Source: a bacterium
GTDB lineage: Bacteria > Planctomycetota > JADGBV01
Reading direction: 5' to 3'
Assembly: GCA_023261545.1 (NCBI GenBank)
Contig: JAHFOS010000025.1
Location: forward strand, 1 to 35,393
DNA length: 35,393 nt
Shown here in pieces: positions 5,867 through 23,721 of the stretch (the stretch's first letter is position 1; every line of letters begins with the position of its first letter). The position numbers were made by a program, and so were the translations under genes. The notes below the pieces were generated by a model that ran no database searches, was not told where the DNA came from, and saw nothing but the letters and a program-made list of their open reading frames with translations.

Positions 5867-8800
5867 TTAGCGCAGCTCGAACTTAAGTTCTACGTTCTGT
5901 TCCCGGAAGGGGCCGGTGTTCTGCGTCGAGGTCCACTCGAAGGCCGGGACCCTGGAATTCCAGAAGGTACGGACCTTATAGAGGCCACTCTCGGGATCTG
6001 CTTGAACGCGACTCGTGGGCTTCGTGTTCGCAGTGTCCGCCTCAGCTATTTTGAGGAAGTTCTGTCCCGGTCGCTTCAGGAAAAAGTCCACGAAGAAAGT
6101 AGGGCCACCCCCCAAGTCGAAGTTGTGGGGGTCGAGAAAAATACCGATCTCGAAGATCCCGTGGAATACACTGGGGGGAGTCGGATGGGTGTCATAGGGC
6201 ACATTCGCCGGTTTTGCCCCGTCCGTCATGAAGTCATCGAGATAGACTTTTGGGTCAGAAACCGACGCATTTACGGCTGGCGAAAACAGTGTGCGCTTGA
6301 TCGCCCCACCTGTAGCTCCACCCTCGGCGGGAATCAAAATATCCACCGTGGCGGTGGGATCCACCTGGAGCCGTTTTTCCGTGAGGAAAGAGTCGGCTGG
6401 TGTGACCACCGGGTCAGGAGGCAGCAAGGTAATCTTGATAAAGTCCACCCGCAGTTCATCCAAGTTGCTCTCGCGCTTAAGTAGTGCCATGGGGTCACCC
6501 GACGGCTGAATCGTGAAATTCGCCGGCAGATCGATGGCGCTGGGATTGCCGTTGTAGAGCTTGATCTCGAAGGCCGAGGCAGCCACAACCCTGAGCTTGG
6601 TCAGCGTGTTTCCACTCAGGAGATTGCCGCTATAGACCCGGAAGCCATTTTCGTCACGCCCGTTGCCCGCAGCCGTGAAGGGGAAGGGGTTTCCCGACGC
6701 CGTGACCTCCATCAAGGAGAAACTATCCAGGCTGGCCGCAAGGTAGCGGAAACCCGTGCCGCTCACCGTGGCTCCGGGACTGAAGTTGAGTTCCACCACT
6801 TGGTTGCCGCTGGAAGCCGCGGAGGTTATTTTGTTGCCGGAAGCGCTGAAGGTGCCGATGACCGATGTGGAATTCCCGCCCGTGAGCAGCCAGTTGTTCC
6901 GCAGGAAGTCCTCGGCGTTGCCGGAACTCGCAGAGCTCACCCCCGCAACCGCAGGCACATGAGCGAGTTTCGTGGACGCGCCGTTCTTGAAGAGCTTGAA
7001 GGCCTCGAAGCGCGAGGGCTTGGTGAGATCCACGTCCAGGCGCAACGTGGTCCAAGTCTTGTCCGCCACCAGTTTTTCAGCCGAGGCTACTGTGATGGTG
7101 TTACCGCTCAGGGCGTTGCCCGTATCCACCATGTCGAGCTGCAAGTTGCCCGAAGTGTTGATGCGCCACAATAGTTGCGGATCGCGACTCGGAACAGGTT
7201 CGACGTGCCGGTCCTGTGCCAGCATCACGTTGCCGTTGGCGCCGAATTTGCGTACCTGGGTTTCCAGCGTGAAGCGCTGACCCCAAGTGATGCTGCTGGG
7301 ACCGCCAATGATAAGAGAGGTCTCCGGAAGCTGTGCATTGCCGGCTCCGTTGAAGTTGAGCGCCGTACCCGCATATTGATTCTGGACGAACTTTACGCCT
7401 TGGATGGGAACGGTGTTGCCCGAGAAATAAACTGTCGGAGGCGGGATGGAGCCCTCGTTCTTGAAGCTTGTCACCTCATTGGCATCGGTGTTCCACTTCT
7501 GGTCATTGAAATCCAGGAAGAAGTTATTGTCCTCGATGGTAAAAATCACGTTGCCGGAAGCCGCCGAGGAAAGGCTGTACGAGTCGGTGGCCACCGCCGA
7601 TACTTTGAAGGTTCCGCGGGCGTTGGAACTCCAGGTGCCCGTGAAAGGCGCGACATTGCTGGAGGAGGCAAAGGCGGCAATGAGATTTCCTGACGCGTTC
7701 TCACGGATGGTGTACGTGAGGTTCGAAATGGTGTCGGTGTCGATGACGTTCGACTGGAAGGTCACATTGCCGCCCAGGATGAACTTGCTGTTCTGGGCGG
7801 GCGCCGTGATCGTCACGACAGGCGTGTCGTTGACGCGAATGGAGATATTCGCCGAGGAAGTCGAGGCGTTGTCATTGTCCTGGGCCTCCACGCGCAGGAG
7901 ATGCGTACCCACATTTCCCGTGGATTGGTTGAAGGAGAAGGCATTGCCTGAACCAATCGTGTTCACCAGCGCGCCGTTGTCATAGAAGCGCATTTGAGCA
8001 ATGCTGCCATCGGAATCCGTCGCGGTGCCGCTGAAGGTGTAGGTCCCCGGATTGATCACAGCCCCGTTGGCAGGCGCTGTTACGCTCACGCCCGTCGGCG
8101 GCGCGTTGATGCGAATAGAAACATTGCCCGAAGACGTCGAGGCGCCGTCGTTGTCATCCGCTTCCACGCGCAGCAATTGGTTGCCGGAGCTCGCCACGGA
8201 ATGGGTGAACGAGAACAGGTTGCCGCCGCCGGTCCCGATGGTGTTGACCAAAGTGGTGCCACTAGCCCCGGCATAGAACCTTATTTTCGCTATCGTGCCG
8301 TCCGTATCAGTCCCGTTGCCGCTGAAGGTGAAACCCTGGTTGATCTGGAAGACGGAACCGTCAGAGGGCGCGGTGACGCTGACACTCGTGGGCGGCGCGT
8401 TGATGCGAATCGAAACATTGCCCGAAGAAGTCGAGGCGCCATTGTTGTCCTCCGCCTCCACGCGCAGCAATTGATTGCCGGCGCTTGCAATGGAATGGGT
8501 GAAGGAAAAGACGTTGCCCCCACCGGTCCCGATGGTGTTGACCAAGGTGGTCCCGCTCGCACCGCCGTAAAACCTTATCTTTGCTATCGTGCCATCCGTA
8601 TCCGTCCCGTTACCACTGAAGGTAAAACCCTGGTTGACCTGGAAGATGGAGCCGCCGGAAGGCGCGGTCACACTGGCACTCGTGGGTGGCGCGTTGATGC
8701 GAATCGGGACGTTGCCCGAAGATGTCGAGGCACCATTGTTGTCATCTGCCTCCACGCGCAGCATCTGGTTGCCAGAGCTTGCGATGGAGTGGGTAAAGGA

Positions 8801-12586: not shown

Positions 12587-13133
12587 GATTCTGCTCCTTT
12601 TGTAAAGGCACGGCCACCGGAAAGTAAGGGGGACCCGGTGGCGTCAAATTAGTTTTGCGCTACCTCGCCGCTTATTTTTGCACTTGCGCCGACATATTTT
12701 TCATTTAAGAGCCAGTTGCACGAATCGCCAGTACCACAGCCCGTAGCGGTCTTGCTTGGGCAATAACCACTACATATTGTGGTTGGATGGCCAAAAATAC
12801 GATTCATGCAACAAACTCATATAATCAAAGTTGAGTTCACGTGTTGTATTTTATCCATTAAAATCCAGAAGTCAGAGGCGCCCCGCGCCGCCAATACCAC
12901 CAAAATCAGCCTCTAGACACACCGGCACCTCCCCGCACCTTCTCCGGCGGCATCCTATTCCACCTCCTGGCGGTTGCCTCGGCCTGACGTCGCACCTGGC
13001 GCTGGAAACAAAGGCGTAGAGCAGGTTTAAGGCTGCAGCCCCGCACCTCCAACCAGAAGCTGGCCAACCCTCCAAAAGCGCCTGTGAGAAGGGCCGATTG
13101 GGCGACTGTGCTCTCCCCGGAACACCGTTAGGC

Positions 13134-13526
13134 TTACTGCGCCGCTTCCGCTTCAACATCGCCCGCAATGGCGCCAAGGCCAGTTGCAGCGTCTTCCTGA
13201 CCGCCTTGCTCATGGTCCTGGTGCTGGTTGGGCTTGCCCCGAGGCCGGAAGTTCCACAGCGCGCAGGTCTTGATCTCGCAGTTGTAGACTTCGGACCATT
13301 GGCAATTGGAGCACTGGAAGCATTTCATGGCGATAGCACGGGGCCTGTTGAGTTTCGCAATCTTGACCCCATCTCTCAGCAGTACCTCAACGCGAACGTA
13401 TCCTCCTGACGCGTTCAAGCCGTCAGCCTTGGCAACTTTAGTCTTGGCTGCCCTGGCAGCTTTAGATTTAGCGGCCCACTCAGCGCGCTGCTCAGGGGTA
13501 GCGTTGGCAATACCAAAATTGGCCAT
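13134..13526 (-). CDS. Small phage-type Cys-cluster protein
   Basis: MANFGIANATPEQRAEWAAKSKAAR... followed by MKCFQCSNCQWSEVYNCEIKTCALWNFRPRG, the C-x2-C...EV..C....C.LW.FR.G pattern often seen in phage/prophage small proteins. Confidence 0.6.
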   Translation of the reverse strand: MANFGIANATPEQRAEWAAKSKAARAAKTKVAKADGLNASGGYVRVEVLLRDGVKIAKLNRPRAIAMKCFQCSNCQWSEVYNCEIKTCALWNFRPRGKPNQHQDHEQGGQEDAATGLGAIAGDVEAEAAQ

Positions 13527-14164
13527 GGTTTTACCCTCACAAAGTAAGATTTGGACTGGATCCCCAGATACTCGCGAAATACAGCGGTATTTCAATAGTC
13601 AGTTGGCCTTGGACCCCTTCTACGACCCCTCATCATCCAAATCGGCTGGAGTGCTACAGGCTAGTGTAGTTTTTAGCTAGAAAACGATTCTAGCGGGTGG
13701 GATCGGAATCAAAAACAGCGTTCCGGCAAACTATTGAAAAAACACCCTGCCGGCAGGTAAATTTATAACAATAGTGAAATCGGCGTAGGATGCCCCAGGA
13801 TCGGAAACGTAAAACCTTCGGAGAACAGGATAGCCGAGCCGGCTTGTTTTCAAGGCACGGCGACTGGGCTAGGCGGAACCCGAAAATAACGCCACCTGCT
13901 GGCGACTTGGCGATAAGCATTTGCCGGGTCAAAAAGCAGAATTTTGATCGGCGCTGCCCGGGAAAAATTTCCGGGTCCGTGTCCGGGCCAGCTCCGGCAT
14001 TCCGGCTGGCGGGCATTTGGAACAATAGTGAAATCTGCGCCTCGGCACGAAAACCCCTTCCCCCCTCCCGTGGCGGCGCTTTCCCCCCAAACCCCCCTTC
14101 CTTGCAGTCAATCCCCACCCCCTAACCCCTACCACCTCACCTCCCTGAATGGAAGATCAAGTGT

Positions 14165-14555
14165 ATTGGAATTACCTGCGTGGGTATCGCTGTTAATAGC
14201 ATCTGCAGGAGATTGCTAGTAACAGCGATCCCTTAGCGACCGCAGGTAACTAGAGATCCCATTGCTTGCTGTAACAGCGATCCCTTAGCAAGCGCTGTAA
14301 CAGAGATCCCTTAGCGACCGCTAGTAACAGAGAATCTCCTAGTAACAGGGGATTCCCTACCAGTCGCTGTCTAACAACGATCCCTTAGCGATTGCTGTAA
14401 CAGGAATCCCCTAGCGAGTGCTAGTAACAGGGGATCCCCTAACGAGCGCTGTTAATAACGATCCCCTAGCGATTGCTAGTAACAGGGATCCCCTAGCGAC
14501 TGCTAATACCAGGGGATCCCCTAACGAGCGCTGTTACTAGCGATCCCAAGTATAA
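14165..14555. repeat. Degenerate tandem-repeat array, ~26-28 bp unit, about 12 units
   Basis: Recurring consensus about GCTRGTAACAGNGATCCCYTAGCGANY, with several units containing the palindrome GGGGATCCCC. Units abut without unique spacers. Confidence 0.8.
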
Positions 14556-15563
14556 TGGCATGGCCGCGTGCGCGCGGTTAATAAGTAAGATCGCATCGTG
14601 GGATCTGCAGGAGATCAAAAAATAAATTTAAAACTGGGACTTGAAAAGGAGAATTTCTTGCCTATCCTCTGCATGCGCTTAAAAACGCTACCACCGGCTC
14701 CATACCTGAATGAAGATTGAATTTTAGACTGGGGGAACTGCAGGCTGCCGTAGCGATCTTCATACAGTTTTCCAGAGAAGTGCAGCCAGATCTAGCACGC
14801 AGCAGGGTGAGATTGCCATGGGGCTGTGTTCGTCAAAAAAATGAAAAGAACACCACCGAAGTTAGCGTGAGCAGCAAGCTAAGGTCGAGAGCGGACTACG
14901 CGAGCTAGTGGCACTTCGGGAACGGTGCGGCCCGCCGATCAATCCAGCGGGCGTTGCGCTGTCCGCAGGCATGATGGCGAAGCTAGGGACTCCCGTGAGC
15001 GCCGGGGTGCTGGGAACAAAGATCGGGAAGCACCTTGAGTAAAGCAGGATCCCTGTCCCACTACACAGACTCCAAAAGCGTCCCCCCTTTGGGCTTGCAG
15101 ATCATCTGAAAGGGTGCGAACCCTGCGTGAAAATCCAAACCCACACTGGCCGGCTCAGTAACCGCATCAATCCAATTCGGATAGAAGTAAGACCATCTCA
15201 GCCGCCTATGGATTAAAAAGTTTCCTAAACAAAACCAGGGCAACTGCGATAGGGCCGAATCCTGTCAAACCCCGGCAGACGGTTTGGTTATGCACCGGCG
15301 GATTTCGCGATCAAACTTTGCGGATTGTGCATATTGCGGGAACCATTTAGACAAGATGCTATCTGCAGGTCGTTGCTGTGCAAGATCAAAAAAACATTAG
15401 GACTATTGTAAAAGTAAAATAGAAAATACCTATTTCCTATGCACAGGAATTTGTCGAACGGAAAACTGATTCCATTGTCTTCATCGTGAACTACAAAATT
15501 GCAAACCCTCTTGCCAAGGGGGATCTCCGAGATGACAGGTCGCAAGAAATTTAGGAGGTCGCG

Positions 15564-18500
15564 ATGCCTTCTTTGAACTGGGGCACGATCCAGGATGGCG
15601 GTACTTTTGAATCGCTGATGCACGCGATCCTCTACGCCGAGGATCGTGCAACGCTCCTGTTTGGCCGCCCCGGCAGGGATGCCGGTCAGGACGCACGTTC
15701 CTCCGACGGAACAATCGTTTATCAGGCAAAATATCGTCAGAAACTTGTGATGGATGGTGCAGTTGACCTTGCACTTGAGGAATTGAAAAGCATCAAGGAC
15801 TACCGCAAGCCCGATCACCCCAATCAAAGACATTGGATGAACGCACGACAATGGGTCTTGGTTGCCAATTTTTCCATTAACCCTGACGATGAGACTAAGT
15901 GGCAGAGCCGTGTTGTTCCTGCCTATCGGGAGGAGGGGTTGGAGGCCAAATACTGGCACATCGAAACATTAGAAGGCAAATTGTCGGCGCATCCCGAGAT
16001 TCTCGATGTTTTTTTTGGTGGTGAAAATCGCGTGCTGGTCGGTTTGAAAGAAGCTCATGATCTCCTGATTGCTGCGTGCGTTGGCCCCGAGTCTCTGGAC
16101 ATACCAATGGTTGGCCGTGATCATGAGTTACAGCAGATTAAAGATTTTGCGAACTCCGATGACAAGTGGGTTCTCCCTGTAGTTGGTCCGGGTGGGGTCG
16201 GTAAGTCGCGCCTCCTATATGAAAGCCTCATCACGTTGAGGCAAGACGGCTGGAGGGTGCTTTGGGGGCTTCCCGGGGAGATGTCAAAGTCCTCACAGTG
16301 GTCTCGGTCTCTGAACGGTTCTCAGAAAACTTTTGTGGCAATTGATGATCCAGATGACTCCAGCCTGTTGCGGAGAGTGATTGAGCAATTGTCAGCCATC
16401 GAACGAAAATGGCGCGTTATCATCGCCTGTCGAAATGAAAATGCGGGGGCATTTCTTCAATTCCGAAACAACCGCCTAGTCTCCGAAACGATGCCGCTGA
16501 TTCCTCTCGACGAGCCAGCATCCAAAAGTCTGATGAATATATGTTTGAAAGGAAAGGCAGAGGACCACTGGCTTCATTCAGTCTTTAAATTCACCGGCGG
16601 CAACCCGGGGTGGATGTGTCTTATTGCGGAACTGACTAATCGAAAAGCTCTGCCTGAACTGCCAAATAAAATAGATGATATCGCCAGCACCTATGTCGAA
16701 TCCTGTTTGACATCGTTAAATAAAAAGCACCAAGAACACGGACGGAAGCTCCTTCGCTGGTTGTCCCTCTGGGGCGTTCTCAAGGTAGGTATTGAAGATA
16801 CAAAGAATGTGGAATTCCTATTTTTAAAATCGCTAGGAATACCTGCCAATTTGTCCGTCGATCTATTGCGAGGTCTCGTGCAAAAGGGTCTTGTTCGTAA
16901 TTGGGGTGTGGGCAGACAGCTTTACGCTGTTGAGCCACTTGTCGTTCGACAGCATATCCTGGGCGATTGGTTATTTGTTGCAGGATCTGATGGGTATCAT
17001 GTCAGTGCGGCGGGGAAACGGCTGGTAGACCAGTTGACCCGGGGAAAAATTCCATCCGTGGACTCGGTTCTAAAAACGCTTTCGCACCTGGTGCTATCGC
17101 GGCTAAATGACGCTGAAACAGATTCTTTTCTGGGACCCATGTTCAAGGCAATGGAGGAAATTGCTAGAAATGGAACAGTACTGGTACAGTATCGTATCGC
17201 CGATCTTATTGAAAAATCCGGATCAGCCGTTCCCGAGAGTTCCTTGAATGTTCTTATGACCATTCGGGAAAACTACAATGATAGCATGGACGTCATTGTC
17301 CAGCCGTGGGGCAAGCAGACTTACACCCATGAATCGCTTGTGGCTAATTTTCCATGGATTCTTTACCAGATCGCCGAGCACATTTCAGATCAAGTTGTGG
17401 CGAGGCGATTCCTGGAGGAATTCCGATTCCTCTTGAAGCTTGAAAATGCCAAGAAGCTCCACGCCGAGGCTGGCAAGGGGGTACATCAACTGCTCAAACG
17501 GATATTGTGCGAATCCAAAAACTTGGAAGTCTTTACGCGATCTGCCTACGATATAGCGGTCGAGCAGCTTGCGGATCCGACAGCCTGGCCCTTCGTCGGG
17601 GCGTTAATCGAATCACTATTGGACCCGATTCGGAAGTCGACGAATTGGACCGACGACTGGACGATTACTTTTTCTAAAAGAGCAATTCATCCAGAACGGG
17701 ACGAGTGGAATCTAGCAGAAAAACTACGGGACAAGGTATTGGATTCTTTACGAGAAGATCGCCAACCCGATGTTCGCGCCGGGCTTTGGCACGTTCTCGC
17801 AAAGTCGCACCATGAGTTCCATCGTGTAGTTTTGCATGGCAACGTGACGGAGGAGGCCGATGCACCGTACCAGGCCGTCCTGGAGAAGGATCTCGAAACC
17901 TGCGCAGCCATTCTGCAGTCTCCCCCAATACCGTTAACTATTGAGGAGGCGACACTGGCTCGTGAGATGTGGTCCTGGTACTTGGAGTATGGCGAAGAGG
18001 ACTCTCTTAGAGATCTGGCGCGCAAATGCGAAAAACTCTATGATGGGATTTCAATATGGAGGCTGCATGGTTTTTATAGGTTTGAAGAGCCTGAAATCCT
18101 GCGAATAGCTGATACTTTAAAGTCGGCCAGGAACATCAATGTTTACGAGGAGTTTTTTTCAGAATCTGAGCGTTATCTAAAATCTGTAGGGGACGGAGCT
18201 GAATACGGAAGTTTGTCTGCTTTGGCCGATTCATTAGTTTTTTTGTTTAGGCCTGACGCACCCGTCAATCCATTGACGTCCTTTGTTTTAAAAGTTTTGG
18301 CTGATGGGAAAAGACCTGTCGGTAGCGCTTCAAGCTGGACTTTTTCTGTCAGGATTTGCGAGAGAGGCCTGGGGCGGATCAAGAAAGACTCCTCGGATGC
18401 ATTAAAAATTCTGAATTACCTTAGATTGATTTCAGACAAAACTCCTCAAAAATCCGATCTCCTTTATGGCCTCTACTCGAATGCACATCCAGCAATAGTC

Positions 18501-19478
18501 GGAGAGCTTACTGAGGCCGAGCTGCAATTTTTACTGGATTTCGAGGCGGAGTTTAAGGAGCCCGCTCGGTGGTTTTACTTGTTGGGCACATTTACGTCAG
18601 TAAATCCTGGCACTGTCCAGGAGTCATTGGCGAAAAAACTTTATTCGCTGGGAAATGTGGAAACCTCCAGCCATTGCATATCAAGTTTTATTCGTGCGCT
18701 CCATATTTCCTGTATTAGGTATGGGGATAGATTTGGCCCTGAGATTGTTGAGTGTATCATTGGGACGATTGTTAAACACAATCTTGATGGGGGGCTTTTG
18801 GGGCGGCATGAACTTGAGGATATCAGTCGTCGTATTAGCTACAAAATGCCATTGAAATTTCTCATCAAGCTACTTAGAACACGCATGGATCTTGACGGAA
18901 AACAAAAACCCTACGATGACTTCAAAATCGTACCCCACAATTTCAAAGTGAGCACATGGTGCAGGTTTAACACAACCAATCCTGCGGAAGTGGATGATTT
19001 TCATGAGTTTTGTCATTTGGCGCTGGGCAACGGATTCACAGCCTTGTACTGGATGCCAAAATACATCTCTCAAATGGACCCCTCGGGACAGCATGTTGGC
19101 GCTTTCGTTGAAAAATATATCTTCGAAAATTCTGTTGTTGATGGGGATTCGTTAGCACGATTATCCTATTTGGCCTCAGAGTACCCCGACGACTCTCAAG
19201 CTTGGGCCGCTATCGCACGACCAATCTGCGTGAAAACCTGGGCGCTTCGAAGAGAGGGAAGGGAACATGTTTATTTTGGGCTATCCCGGAAGGAGACGGG
19301 TGTGATTCGTGGCGCACGAGTGGACCACTGCACTCAAATGCGTGACCGCGCAGTCCAATTGCTCAGTATCGAGCCCAAAGGTTCCCCTTTGTGGCCCTAT
19401 CGAGAGTGGGCGTTGAAATGCGCCGAAGCTGATCTTCGTCGGGAAACGGAAAGAGCGGAAGAAGACGCCCATGGCTGA
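15564..19478 (+). CDS. Mrr-like restriction nuclease plus STAND P-loop NTPase, Avs-like putative antiphage protein
   Basis: 1304 aa, strong SD (AGGAGGT) upstream. N-terminus TFESLMHAILYAE...GRDAGQDARSSDGTIVYQAKYR (E...D...QxK nuclease pattern). Walker A GPGGVGKSRL, Walker B TFVAIDDPDD, VIIACRNEN, FTGGNPGW (STAND GxP-like). Long unassigned C-terminal region. Confidence 0.85.
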   Translation: MPSLNWGTIQDGGTFESLMHAILYAEDRATLLFGRPGRDAGQDARSSDGTIVYQAKYRQKLVMDGAVDLALEELKSIKDYRKPDHPNQRHWMNARQWVLVANFSINPDDETKWQSRVVPAYREEGLEAKYWHIETLEGKLSAHPEILDVFFGGENRVLVGLKEAHDLLIAACVGPESLDIPMVGRDHELQQIKDFANSDDKWVLPVVGPGGVGKSRLLYESLITLRQDGWRVLWGLPGEMSKSSQWSRSLNGSQKTFVAIDDPDDSSLLRRVIEQLSAIERKWRVIIACRNENAGAFLQFRNNRLVSETMPLIPLDEPASKSLMNICLKGKAEDHWLHSVFKFTGGNPGWMCLIAELTNRKALPELPNKIDDIASTYVESCLTSLNKKHQEHGRKLLRWLSLWGVLKVGIEDTKNVEFLFLKSLGIPANLSVDLLRGLVQKGLVRNWGVGRQLYAVEPLVVRQHILGDWLFVAGSDGYHVSAAGKRLVDQLTRGKIPSVDSVLKTLSHLVLSRLNDAETDSFLGPMFKAMEEIARNGTVLVQYRIADLIEKSGSAVPESSLNVLMTIRENYNDSMDVIVQPWGKQTYTHESLVANFPWILYQIAEHISDQVVARRFLEEFRFLLKLENAKKLHAEAGKGVHQLLKRILCESKNLEVFTRSAYDIAVEQLADPTAWPFVGALIESLLDPIRKSTNWTDDWTITFSKRAIHPERDEWNLAEKLRDKVLDSLREDRQPDVRAGLWHVLAKSHHEFHRVVLHGNVTEEADAPYQAVLEKDLETCAAILQSPPIPLTIEEATLAREMWSWYLEYGEEDSLRDLARKCEKLYDGISIWRLHGFYRFEEPEILRIADTLKSARNINVYEEFFSESERYLKSVGDGAEYGSLSALADSLVFLFRPDAPVNPLTSFVLKVLADGKRPVGSASSWTFSVRICERGLGRIKKDSSDALKILNYLRLISDKTPQKSDLLYGLYSNAHPAIVGELTEAELQFLLDFEAEFKEPARWFYLLGTFTSVNPGTVQESLAKKLYSLGNVETSSHCISSFIRALHISCIRYGDRFGPEIVECIIGTIVKHNLDGGLLGRHELEDISRRISYKMPLKFLIKLLRTRMDLDGKQKPYDDFKIVPHNFKVSTWCRFNTTNPAEVDDFHEFCHLALGNGFTALYWMPKYISQMDPSGQHVGAFVEKYIFENSVVDGDSLARLSYLASEYPDDSQAWAAIARPICVKTWALRREGREHVYFGLSRKETGVIRGARVDHCTQMRDRAVQLLSIEPKGSPLWPYREWALKCAEADLRRETERAEEDAHG

Positions 19479-20430
19479 TTTGGAAACACAGGTGAAGTCC
19501 AGCGCGGATCAATTGCGCGATGCATTGGGGAATGTCAAACTCAGGTCATCAGGAACCGCGTTGCCGATAAAATGCTACGAGAACTGGGAAATTCTCGCGT
19601 CCTTACATTCCTGCCTCACAGACGCTGTACCACTATTCGAAGTCAGAAGAATTGCATGGTTGGTCATGAACTCTCTGGTCAACGATGGGCGCATGGATCG
19701 GGAAAACAGACGAGTGCTTCAGAAGCAGCTATTAGATCCATCCAAATCTGTACCCAGCTATTCTTTCGATGGAGAACCCACGGACTTTGCCATAAGCAGA
19801 CATCTGGCGACAACAGGATATGTTTGTTCGGCGTGGAGCTTGTATGACCGACTTGCAAATGTGTGCGGACGGTTGTCGGCGTGGAAGGATGTTCCGAATG
19901 ACCCTTGGCAGGATCCCAAGCTATGGGGAAACTTGATGAGTGAGGGAAACAAGAGCGTTGGCGGCTTCATGATCCAGCAGCCGTTGGCAGCTGCTTACGG
20001 ATGGCCAACGGGGGTTGCTTACAAGATTCGGAACTGGTTGGTCCATGACGGGGGAGACGCTGGGCGACCAGGATTCTTCGAAGGAACACAAGTCTCGGAT
20101 CGCTTCATTCTACATAATAACGCCGTATCCTATCTTCAAGAGTGCTGCACCTACAAGTGTGAAAGTGGAAAGATTGATCGTTGTTGTCTTTCTGCTACGG
20201 ATGAGCCTTGGTTGACCCGTGACCTTCTTCAAATCCTTGAGAAGTATCACGCTGAAATCGACACCATGCTAACCTATCTTGTAAAATGGAGCGTGGGGTC
20301 TTTTGTCGGACAGATCCTAACATTTTGCGAACGAGACAAGCATATCTTGGTTACAACTGCAGTCACTACTCGCTCCTCGCGTGGGCGAACCCGAAGGCGG
20401 ACGAGCACGACGAGACCCTCCATGTCATAG
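19471..20430 (+). CDS. Unknown accessory protein with HEPN-like RNxxxH motif, coupled to the STAND gene
   Basis: 319-aa ORF; its ATG overlaps the upstream stop (ATGGCTGA, 19471-19478). Contains YKIRNWLVHDGGD. The C-terminal ~25 aa are low-complexity Arg/Thr and may not be native. Confidence 0.75.
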   Translation: MADLETQVKSSADQLRDALGNVKLRSSGTALPIKCYENWEILASLHSCLTDAVPLFEVRRIAWLVMNSLVNDGRMDRENRRVLQKQLLDPSKSVPSYSFDGEPTDFAISRHLATTGYVCSAWSLYDRLANVCGRLSAWKDVPNDPWQDPKLWGNLMSEGNKSVGGFMIQQPLAAAYGWPTGVAYKIRNWLVHDGGDAGRPGFFEGTQVSDRFILHNNAVSYLQECCTYKCESGKIDRCCLSATDEPWLTRDLLQILEKYHAEIDTMLTYLVKWSVGSFVGQILTFCERDKHILVTTAVTTRSSRGRTRRRTSTTRPSMS

Positions 20431-20919
20431 GGCAGACGTTCCTGAAGACCACTCCGCTGGGGGCACGGGAACAATAACGCCCCGGCGCACGGCGCCAAGC
20501 TCTAGCATCTGCAGGGTAGTCATAGCAGCTACCACTCCAACACGCCTACGTGCCGGCGCACGCTGGTTACTCCTATTCCTTAGTTGATCGGCAAGGTCCT
20601 CCAACCGCGTCTGGTACTCGTTGAAGCTATCGCCCTGTGCTTTGAAGACATTGCCGTAGGTGCGAATACCTGAAATGTCCCTGTCAAGCTGCATCGTGGG
20701 AATGAAGGCACCCGTCCCGGACATGGAGGATACGAATAAAAGCCCCAGTTTACGTGAGATTCTGGTGGCATGCCCCCACACTTCTGACGCAATGGCTGGA
20801 AGCGGTTCTGCTACCACAACCTGAAACCAAACTACCCAAATATCACTGGGATCCAGTGTAGAGTCTGTGGTAACTGCGGATCGTAAAGATACGGACATAG
20901 TGCTAGAAGTGGTCACCAA
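20425..20919 (-). CDS. Hypothetical protein
   Basis: 164-aa ORF with plausible composition; no family recognised. Confidence 0.4.
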   Translation of the reverse strand: MVTTSSTMSVSLRSAVTTDSTLDPSDIWVVWFQVVVAEPLPAIASEVWGHATRISRKLGLLFVSSMSGTGAFIPTMQLDRDISGIRTYGNVFKAQGDSFNEYQTRLEDLADQLRNRSNQRAPARRRVGVVAAMTTLQMLELGAVRRGVIVPVPPAEWSSGTSAL

Positions 20920-21022: not shown

Positions 21023-21463
21023 TCATAGAACCCCCAAATGGGTAAGAAGATCTCTAAACTGGGCGCTCGGCAGATTGGTCATGTGAATTACACTGTCTTG
21101 CAGCCAGGCGTTGTTGCTAGGGCTTATGAGCCGGCCTGGAGGGTTCCACAGCTTGTAGCCTCCGGGTGTGGTGATGTCAACGACGAAGGCCAGCTTGCTG
21201 ACCCCCTTCACACTCTTGGCCGCCATCTTGGCCCAGAAATCAAACTCCCACTCTGCCCAGTGCAGGATGTCCTCTTGAGTCCCTTCGAAAACCATCCCAA
21301 ATGTCAAAATGACCCGGGGGTCTTGAGCTACCTTGCTAACGTACCTGTTGGTCAGTTTGAGATACAGCAGGCGCGCGACGTCAGTTAGCCACTCCGTCCT
21401 AGCGTCCTGGTCCCCAGGCCGGTCTGGATGAAACTCCCAAGACCGGACGGTGTACTGCAGCAC
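21023..21463 (-). CDS. Hypothetical protein (possibly 5'-truncated)
   Basis: 146-aa ORF with GTG start; the frame extends upstream as EADPTSDVGFYAAVLQYTV before a stop. No family recognised. Confidence 0.45.
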   Translation of the reverse strand: MLQYTVRSWEFHPDRPGDQDARTEWLTDVARLLYLKLTNRYVSKVAQDPRVILTFGMVFEGTQEDILHWAEWEFDFWAKMAAKSVKGVSKLAFVVDITTPGGYKLWNPPGRLISPSNNAWLQDSVIHMTNLPSAQFRDLLTHLGVL

Positions 21464-21963: not shown

Positions 21964-22377
21964 GTGGACCAGGAAATGACTGGAGCCACTTCCACTCGTG
22001 TCAGCACCCCGGAAGAAGGAATGCCTCATTCCGGTCTCAAGCCCGCTTTATCTGCAGCGCGTCATGATCGAAGCCTCGATCCTCCCGTGAAACCCTGCAA
22101 GACTATCATTCCAAAGCTGTCGCCACCAGAGCCCCAAACCGCAACCTTGATGTTCCCGGAAGTCATGGAGCCCGAACTCGCAGCGAAGTATTTGCGCCTC
22201 AATAAGGGAGGGGCGAGAACCTTGGCTAACTGGAGGATGCGCGGGATAGGCCCGCCCTTCGTGAAAATGGGCCACAAGATGATCCGCTATCGCAAGGGAA
22301 CCTTAGACGCCTGGATGGCTAACAGGGAATACCAATTTACTTCCCAGTTTCTGGCAGAGAAGGTGCCCGGGATGTAA
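21964..22377 (+). CDS. Excisionase / AlpA-like helix-turn-helix protein
   Basis: C-terminal half EPELAAKYLRLNKGGARTLANWRMRGIGPPFVKMGHKMIRYRKGTLDAWMANREY matches the HTH_17/excisionase pattern. The true start may be downstream. Confidence 0.7.
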   Translation: MDQEMTGATSTRVSTPEEGMPHSGLKPALSAARHDRSLDPPVKPCKTIIPKLSPPEPQTATLMFPEVMEPELAAKYLRLNKGGARTLANWRMRGIGPPFVKMGHKMIRYRKGTLDAWMANREYQFTSQFLAEKVPGM

Positions 22378-23470
22378 TCCCGTAGGTAATTTTCTCGATG
22401 GCCTCCATCGCCTCGCGCTTCGAGGTGTCAGAGATGTGCTGGTATATCTGGGCGGTGGAGAGCTGGCTATGCCCCATGGCCGCCATGATTTTCTGCGGAG
22501 AAAATCCGTGCGTGGCGAGCTGCGATCCGAAAGTGCGGCGGATATCGTGGATACGGATGTCATTTAGTCCGCAGCGCGCGCGCACCCGTAGCCAGGACTT
22601 CCCAAGTCCGTTTATAGGCGTCCCCTTGTCGCCAGCAAAGACGAACTCCGAGACCCGCGGCAGGCTTCTCAGGATTCCCAGTAGCGTCGCATTGAGCGGC
22701 ACTATGTGTGGGCGCCCGGACTTCGTTCGCGGAATAGTCCACAACTCGCGCTCGAAGTCCACGTCCTCCCAGCGCATCCGCCGCACCTCGGTTCTCCTCT
22801 GCCCCGTGAGGAGCAGCACGTTGAAGTAGGCGCGGTAAGTCGGGTTCTCCAGTTCCACGGACTCGCGCCACTTTTGGATCTCCTCCAGGCCCAACCATCG
22901 CTCGCGCTTCTGCTCTGGAAACTTGCGCATGCGACTAGCCGGATTCGTCGGGATCATTTCCCATTCGACGGCTTTGGCTACTAGATGCTGCACGAAGGCC
23001 AGGAACCTATTGGCCTGAACGCTGCCATGCCGTTTCATAACTTCATTATGCCAAGACGAAACGAGTCGGCGTGTAATATCGGAAACGCACAATGGCCCCG
23101 CGAGTTTTTCTAGCCACATCCTGTACTTCGCTTTGTCCATCGCCGTCCGCGCCGAATTCCTGGTGTCCACATGGGATTTCCAATATTCATCCAGAAGCTC
23201 TGAAAGCGGCACCTCCCGCGTCTCTTCGAGCCGCCTCCCCAGCAGTTTCGCAGCCCGTTTCCGAGCCTCATCCACCGAAATATCTTCGATCCTCCCCAGG
23301 GTTCGCGTCGTATCTCGCCCCCCACGGTAGATGCGCACCACGTAAGATCGAGCCCCCCCATAACTCACCCGTATCCCAAAACGGCGGTCGAGATCATCCC
23401 ATAAAAACTGTACCCCAGCGCCCGGCAGCGGAATCCCAAAGACATTCCTCCTCGTCAGCCGCACTTGCAC
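22337..23470 (-). CDS. Tyrosine recombinase / phage-type integrase
   Basis: 377 aa with catalytic signatures LLTGQRRTEVRRMRWEDVD, HDIRRTFGSQLATHG, MGHSQLSTAQIYQHI. Confidence 0.93.
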   Translation of the reverse strand: MQVRLTRRNVFGIPLPGAGVQFLWDDLDRRFGIRVSYGGARSYVVRIYRGGRDTTRTLGRIEDISVDEARKRAAKLLGRRLEETREVPLSELLDEYWKSHVDTRNSARTAMDKAKYRMWLEKLAGPLCVSDITRRLVSSWHNEVMKRHGSVQANRFLAFVQHLVAKAVEWEMIPTNPASRMRKFPEQKRERWLGLEEIQKWRESVELENPTYRAYFNVLLLTGQRRTEVRRMRWEDVDFERELWTIPRTKSGRPHIVPLNATLLGILRSLPRVSEFVFAGDKGTPINGLGKSWLRVRARCGLNDIRIHDIRRTFGSQLATHGFSPQKIMAAMGHSQLSTAQIYQHISDTSKREAMEAIEKITYGITSRAPSLPETGK

Positions 23471-23648
23471 CCACCTCCGCTAGACTATTTTTGACACGGC
23501 TTCGACACGATAGCACCGTGATTATGAAGGTATGCATCGTGATTCAACAAGTACTTTGGAGCAGACGTTCGCCTGCATAATTTCAAGATAACTACCTAAT
23601 AATCAGAATAATATCTTGAAAACCACACGCTTACAAAAGATTGGAAAG

Positions 23649-23721
<73 letters not shown>

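Follow-up and report, generated by a model that had tools for sequence, protein, structure and literature searches.

Two overlapping genes in a stretch of planctomycete DNA have the appearance of a so far undescribed self-destruct system against phages. Based on sequence and structure comparisons of the pair in the window (the whole 35,393-nucleotide stretch that was analyzed), we propose that it is a two-gene abortive-infection system of the Avs/NLR type whose dedicated partner is probably a HEPN protein, a reading that we consider likely, if by a modest degree. The features on which it rests are as follows.

15553..15559, plus strand: Shine-Dalgarno sequence AGGAGGT, 4 nt ahead of the ATG of the large gene (sequence)
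15564..19478, plus strand: large receptor-like gene, 1304 aa, ATG start (open reading frame; full-length homologues P0004, P0007 and P0003)
15564..16043, plus strand: predicted restriction-endonuclease-like (PD-(D/E)XK / D-QxK) domain, residues 1-160 (alignments A5-A7; AlphaFold2)
16104..17033, plus strand: STAND NTPase and winged-helix-like part, residues ~181-490 (PF25199; Foldseek)
17034..19475, plus strand: least conserved C-terminal region, presumed sensor, residues 491-1304 (no Pfam match)
19471..19478, plus strand: 8-nt start/stop overlap of the large and partner genes, ATGGCTGA (sequence; identical in genome G393, ATGAGTAA in genome G683)
19471..20430, plus strand: partner gene, 319 aa, ATG start, putative HEPN (alignment A4; homologues P0005 and P0008)
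20344..20430, plus strand: C-terminal tail of the partner, not in its relatives (end of the family model; alignment A4)

An earlier note, made from the letters alone, had described reading frames of 1304 and 319 aa overlapping by ATGGCTGA, a perfect Shine-Dalgarno sequence, and the N-terminal motifs FESLMHAIL, GQDARSSDG and VYQAKYR in the larger protein; every one of these elements was found in its place. Because full-length, stop-free homologues of both reading frames exist in other genomes, we regard both as genuine genes.

The large protein (P0001) is a STAND NTPase of the Pfam family nSTAND_NTPase5 (PF25199), the sole Pfam family above cut-off in it. The profile covers residues 195-291 of the window protein with 41.2 bits against a cut-off of 34, which the relatives P0004 (34.4 bits) and P0007 (35.4 bits) also exceed. 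A Walker A motif, GPGGVGKSR, lies at residues 208-216 (GPGGVGK at 208-214) and a Walker B motif, VAIDD, at 258-262. When the window protein was aligned end to end (alignment A5) with P0004 (G393, 42% identity), P0007 (G683, 47%) and P0003 (genome G022, 26%), G208, G210, G211, G213 and K214 of Walker A, together with D261, were invariant among the four. A LuxR/MalT-type STAND transcription regulator was considered and set aside, as the NCBIfam model AbsR2 reached 12.6 bits against 850 and the N-terminus is nuclease-like.

That N-terminus carries E16, D43 and Q54-x-K56; none of these residues varies among the four homologues, despite an overall identity of 26-47%. The AlphaFold2 model of residues 1-490 shows an alpha-beta-beta-beta-alpha-beta order over residues 12-131 (helices at 12-26, 63-80 and 107-122; strands at 31-33, 43-45, 51-55, 96-100 and 127-131), followed by a P-loop NTPase. 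Confidence in the model is moderate (pLDDT 66 overall, mostly 60-88 in the nuclease domain and weaker around residues 31-41). As modeled, the order of the core, combined with E, D and (D/E/Q)xK, is that of the PD-(D/E)XK, or restriction-endonuclease, fold. Of the label "PD-(D/E)xK/Mrr-like" given to this domain previously, the restriction-endonuclease-like part agrees with the model, whereas the Mrr part does not go beyond a sub-threshold match. The Mrr catalytic domain (PF04471) was reached in P0003 only, with 14.5 bits at best against a cut-off of 21 (E 0.04), although the motif order of the large protein, E...GxD...QxK, is like that of Mrr-type restriction endonucleases.

Conservation falls along the protein: identity to the window protein is 61-64% in the nuclease domain, 50-53% in the NTPase and 35-40% in the C-terminal region, which is the pattern expected of a diversifying sensor of varying phage proteins. 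We presume on this basis that the C-terminal region is a sensor. It had been described as an unassigned region of about 850 aa; it has indeed no Pfam match, and its size is about 810 aa. When residues 1-490 were compared with the PDB by Foldseek, Avs4 in complex with a phage portal ranked first (8dgf_A, E 1.8e-9) and its second chain (8dgf_B) next, with plant NLR resistosomes ranking after Avs4. With 535 columns, counting gaps, against a query of 490 residues, the Avs4 alignment must cover the greater part of the nuclease domain. Because of the low global TM-score (0.24), the packing of domains in the model is not to be trusted. Taken from Pfam, AlphaFold2 and Foldseek, the predicted arrangement is the tripartite one of Avs proteins, i.e., effector, STAND NTPase and sensor, as the earlier reader had suggested. 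In another genome (G542, locus L023), we observed a STAND protein with a related NTPase and a different, non-nuclease N-terminus (MIRVFVSS...), which on reading of its translation is DUF4062-like; this is in keeping with the modular nature of STAND effectors.

The partner protein is best conserved in two blocks, W-S-x-Y-D-R-L-A-N (122-130) and K-x-R-N-W-L-V-H (185-192), within which YDRLAN (125-130) and RNWLVH (187-192) are invariant in the three homologues (alignment A4), the window protein being 45% identical to that of G393 and 42% to that of G683. The HEPN RNase motif is Rx4-6H with N, D or H following the R (PMC3710099), and R187-N188-x3-H192 conforms to it. A HEPN_Cthe2314 protein from the same phylum (P0009) reads YDRL...RNEIMH with similar spacing; the conserved YDRL of the partner likewise lies ~60 residues upstream of R-N-x3-H. 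Judging from these motifs, the partner is somewhat more probably a HEPN protein than not. The comparison of profiles (hhalign) between the partner and one HEPN_Cthe2314 protein was not significant, and HEPN-clan Pfam profiles gave no match at E <= 10 for any member of the partner family. The AlphaFold2 model of the partner is nearly all helical, but its pLDDT of 37.5 makes it unusable, and Foldseek with this low-confidence model returned no match. Matches of the partner family to CBM9, Fumerase_C and NPHI_C were weak and were judged to be chance.

The partner reading frame in the window exceeds its relatives, which end in "...FAARDQQ*" and "...FAARDQA*", by ~25-28 aa, and the family model stops at 20343. 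Another frame at 20344-20480 reads ILRTRQAYLGYNCSHYSLLAWANPKADEHDETLHVIGQTFLKTTPLGAREQ (...LLAWANPKADEHDETLHVIGQTFLKTTPLGAREQ over 20344..20430) with coding-like codon use, as if the final part of some unrelated gene had remained at a junction. Since this other frame resembles the end of another protein, the extension of the partner is likely due to a junction or to loss of the stop.

The earlier note had not recognized the pairing of the two proteins and had proposed a check for conserved co-occurrence; this check came out in favour of its proposal, as we found the same overlapping pair at three loci. Two further genomes of the phylum carry both genes with an 8-nt overlap, at 42-47% identity. 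The overlap in G393 is again ATGGCTGA, between the receptor gene (L017, 9040-12978) and a partner of 284 aa (12971-13825); in G683 it is ATGAGTAA, between the receptor gene (L020, 6978-10919, minus strand) and a partner of 276 aa (6155-6985). The three genomes are distantly related. Genomes were sampled in depth within this phylum: the partner occurs in 2 of 394 genomes sampled from the class of G393, and these two are also the only ones with the full-length receptor (by our own calculation, a coincidence of about 1 in 77,000, or 1/C(394,2), were the genes independent), and in a 276-genome sample of the phylum the partner occurs solely in the window's own genome. The divergent receptor P0003 (G022, L004, 6263-10240, 26% identity) is solitary, with no partner-like reading frame downstream; it works without a partner or has lost it. 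The surroundings of P0003 read as transposase, resolvase and SRAP-type genes. Among plasmids, the sole relative of P0001 was a decayed receptor copy on pAzo01 of Nostoc azollae (L006, 6001-7884), annotated as several short hypothetical proteins, from which it follows that the receptor family reaches the Cyanobacteriota; the partner was not found among the plasmids. P0001 had no relative among 50,697 phage records, and a direct scan of the genome contig collection with each protein gave no match.

Comparison with known families and systems placed the pair near several of them. The defence-model check that had been suggested for the locus turned out negative: neither the large protein nor the partner fits any PADLOC family, with none at E <= 1 for P0001 and none at E <= 0.1 for P0004 and P0007. 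Neither protein has a fitting family in NCBIfam or PHROG, and a PDB sequence search with the large protein produced no significant match to solved chains. Avs1-4 are reported to recognise the phage terminase or portal, or some other protein of the phage, and to kill through nuclease activity (PMC12931631). Like Avs4 (AVAST type 4, PDB 8dgf), the large protein has an N-terminal nuclease, a central STAND NTPase and a long C-terminal region; unlike Avs4, it has a PF25199-type NTPase and an overlapping partner gene, and is without a significant PADLOC or solved-chain sequence match. As no PADLOC model matched, we do not assign the system to any named Avs type. The partner resembles HEPN RNases (HEPN_Cthe2314, PF18730) in R-N-x3-H, in the upstream YDRL and in its helical prediction; it differs from the HEPN superfamily in having no profile match and in being encoded by a separate gene beside a nuclease-STAND protein, in contrast to the known fusions of HEPN to STAND-ATPase/TPR (PMC3710099). 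In the portions of the open-licence literature on STAND plus HEPN systems that were available, we found no description of such a receptor/partner pair.

The window pair sits between non-coding repeats and an integrase with an HTH_17 protein beside a tRNA-Phe gene.

21964..22377, plus strand: HTH_17 / excisionase-like small protein (PF12728, E 1.7e-5, just under cut-off)
22337..23470, minus strand: tyrosine integrase of the island (PF00589, 98 bits; PF13356)
23648..23721, minus strand: tRNA-Phe(GAA), probable attachment site (tRNA call)

That the genes lie on an integrase-bearing island, as previously claimed, is in keeping with an integrase adjoining tRNA-Phe; a second copy of the tRNA-Phe 3' end (att) was not found within the window, and the left edge of the island could for this reason not be placed. 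Upstream of the operon, 14211-14550 holds about seven degenerate, non-coding direct repeats of ~26 nt (TAACAGCGATCCCTTAGCGA-like) with internal inverted repeats. Two uncharacterised reading frames without a Pfam match (20425-20919 and 21023-21463, minus strand) separate the pair from the integrase; a PADLOC match of the former to PglZ (E 0.008) is probably chance. No other recognised defence gene was present among the tested reading frames of the window island. The surroundings in G393 are a clear defence neighbourhood, with a PLD-family nuclease and then an HsdM-type (type I) methylase downstream of the pair and a PADLOC PDC-S14 GIY-YIG/DUF4357 protein upstream; it is the one locus with clear defence neighbours. 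The PLD-family nuclease gene there (L017, 13899-15029) starts ~70 nt past the partner and is possibly a third member of the operon in G393. At the corresponding place, such a nuclease is absent in G683 and none was recognised in the window. Near the pair in G683 is a gene whose translation was read as that of a group II intron-type reverse transcriptase.

In the mechanism that we propose, a nucleotide in the STAND domain would hold the large protein inactive until, by analogy with Avs, a phage product is bound by the long C-terminal region. The NTPases would then oligomerise and bring the N-terminal nucleases together, DNA would be cut, and the infected cell would die or stop. Translation of the partner may be coupled through the overlapping start codon, so that it acts with the receptor in a fixed ratio. 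The partner would most likely be a HEPN RNase or a HEPN-fold subunit, released or activated by the receptor, and would supply an RNase or regulate the receptor. What counts for the Avs/NLR reading is the PF25199 assignment, the nuclease residues and the order of secondary structure around them, the Avs4 match followed by plant NLRs, the overlap, the co-occurrence, the neighbours in G393, the conservation gradient, the G542 protein with its other N-terminus and RNWLVH; against it count the misses in the libraries, HEPN profiles included, the unusable model of the partner, the values for the large protein (pLDDT 66, TM-score 0.24), the partnerless P0003 and the single defence neighbourhood.

The same defence role could be served by a partner that is no RNase and acts as a structural, regulatory or trigger-sensing subunit or as an inhibitor of the nuclease, its RNxxxH being incidental or RNA-binding. 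The missing HEPN profile and structure matches agree with this, as does the existence of non-catalytic HEPN domains (PMC3710099), and R[NDH]xxxH arises by chance in 5% of shuffles of the partner sequence. Invariance of the motif in three sequences at 42-45% identity to that of the window, with the polar N after R found in active HEPN RNases, argues in the other direction, as does the YDRL helix shared with the HEPN_Cthe2314 protein, even if that comparison was not significant; we judge a non-RNase partner unlikely, though well above negligible.

Two further readings are lower still in probability. The large protein might be a type IV-like restriction enzyme that directly recognises and cuts foreign (e.g., modified) DNA, with neither protein sensing nor cell killing, given the broad fold that its N-terminus shares with Mrr and the type I methylase gene adjoining one copy. 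However, protein-sensing Avs4, and neither McrBC nor Mrr, is closest to it in fold, and a fast-evolving C-terminus better suits a protein sensor, so that we hold this to be improbable. Even less probably, the pair serves the mobile island as a stability or toxin-antitoxin-like module, with the large protein as poison and the partner as antidote, or the reverse, and defence incidental. Such a module would account for the tight overlap, the strict co-occurrence in three genomes and the adjoining integrase, but the divergent P0003 persists without a partner, and known toxin-antitoxin genes do not look like a receptor of 1300 aa.

STAND/NLR immune receptors are common to bacteria, plants and animals, and each of the known bacterial Avs-type systems shows a new way of linking sensing to killing. 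On the Avs/NLR reading, the pair combines a nuclease-STAND receptor that is without counterpart in the searched defence-model library with a dedicated partner, in an overlap kept across distant genomes. This leads to the question as to whether a bacterial NLR is able to set both a DNase and an RNase in action. We suggest tentatively, as a possibility we rate below even, that the NLR-like receptor commands two nucleases, its own N-terminal DNase in cis and, in trans, a dedicated HEPN RNase from the overlapping downstream gene; if this is true, a single phage trigger would destroy both DNA and RNA.
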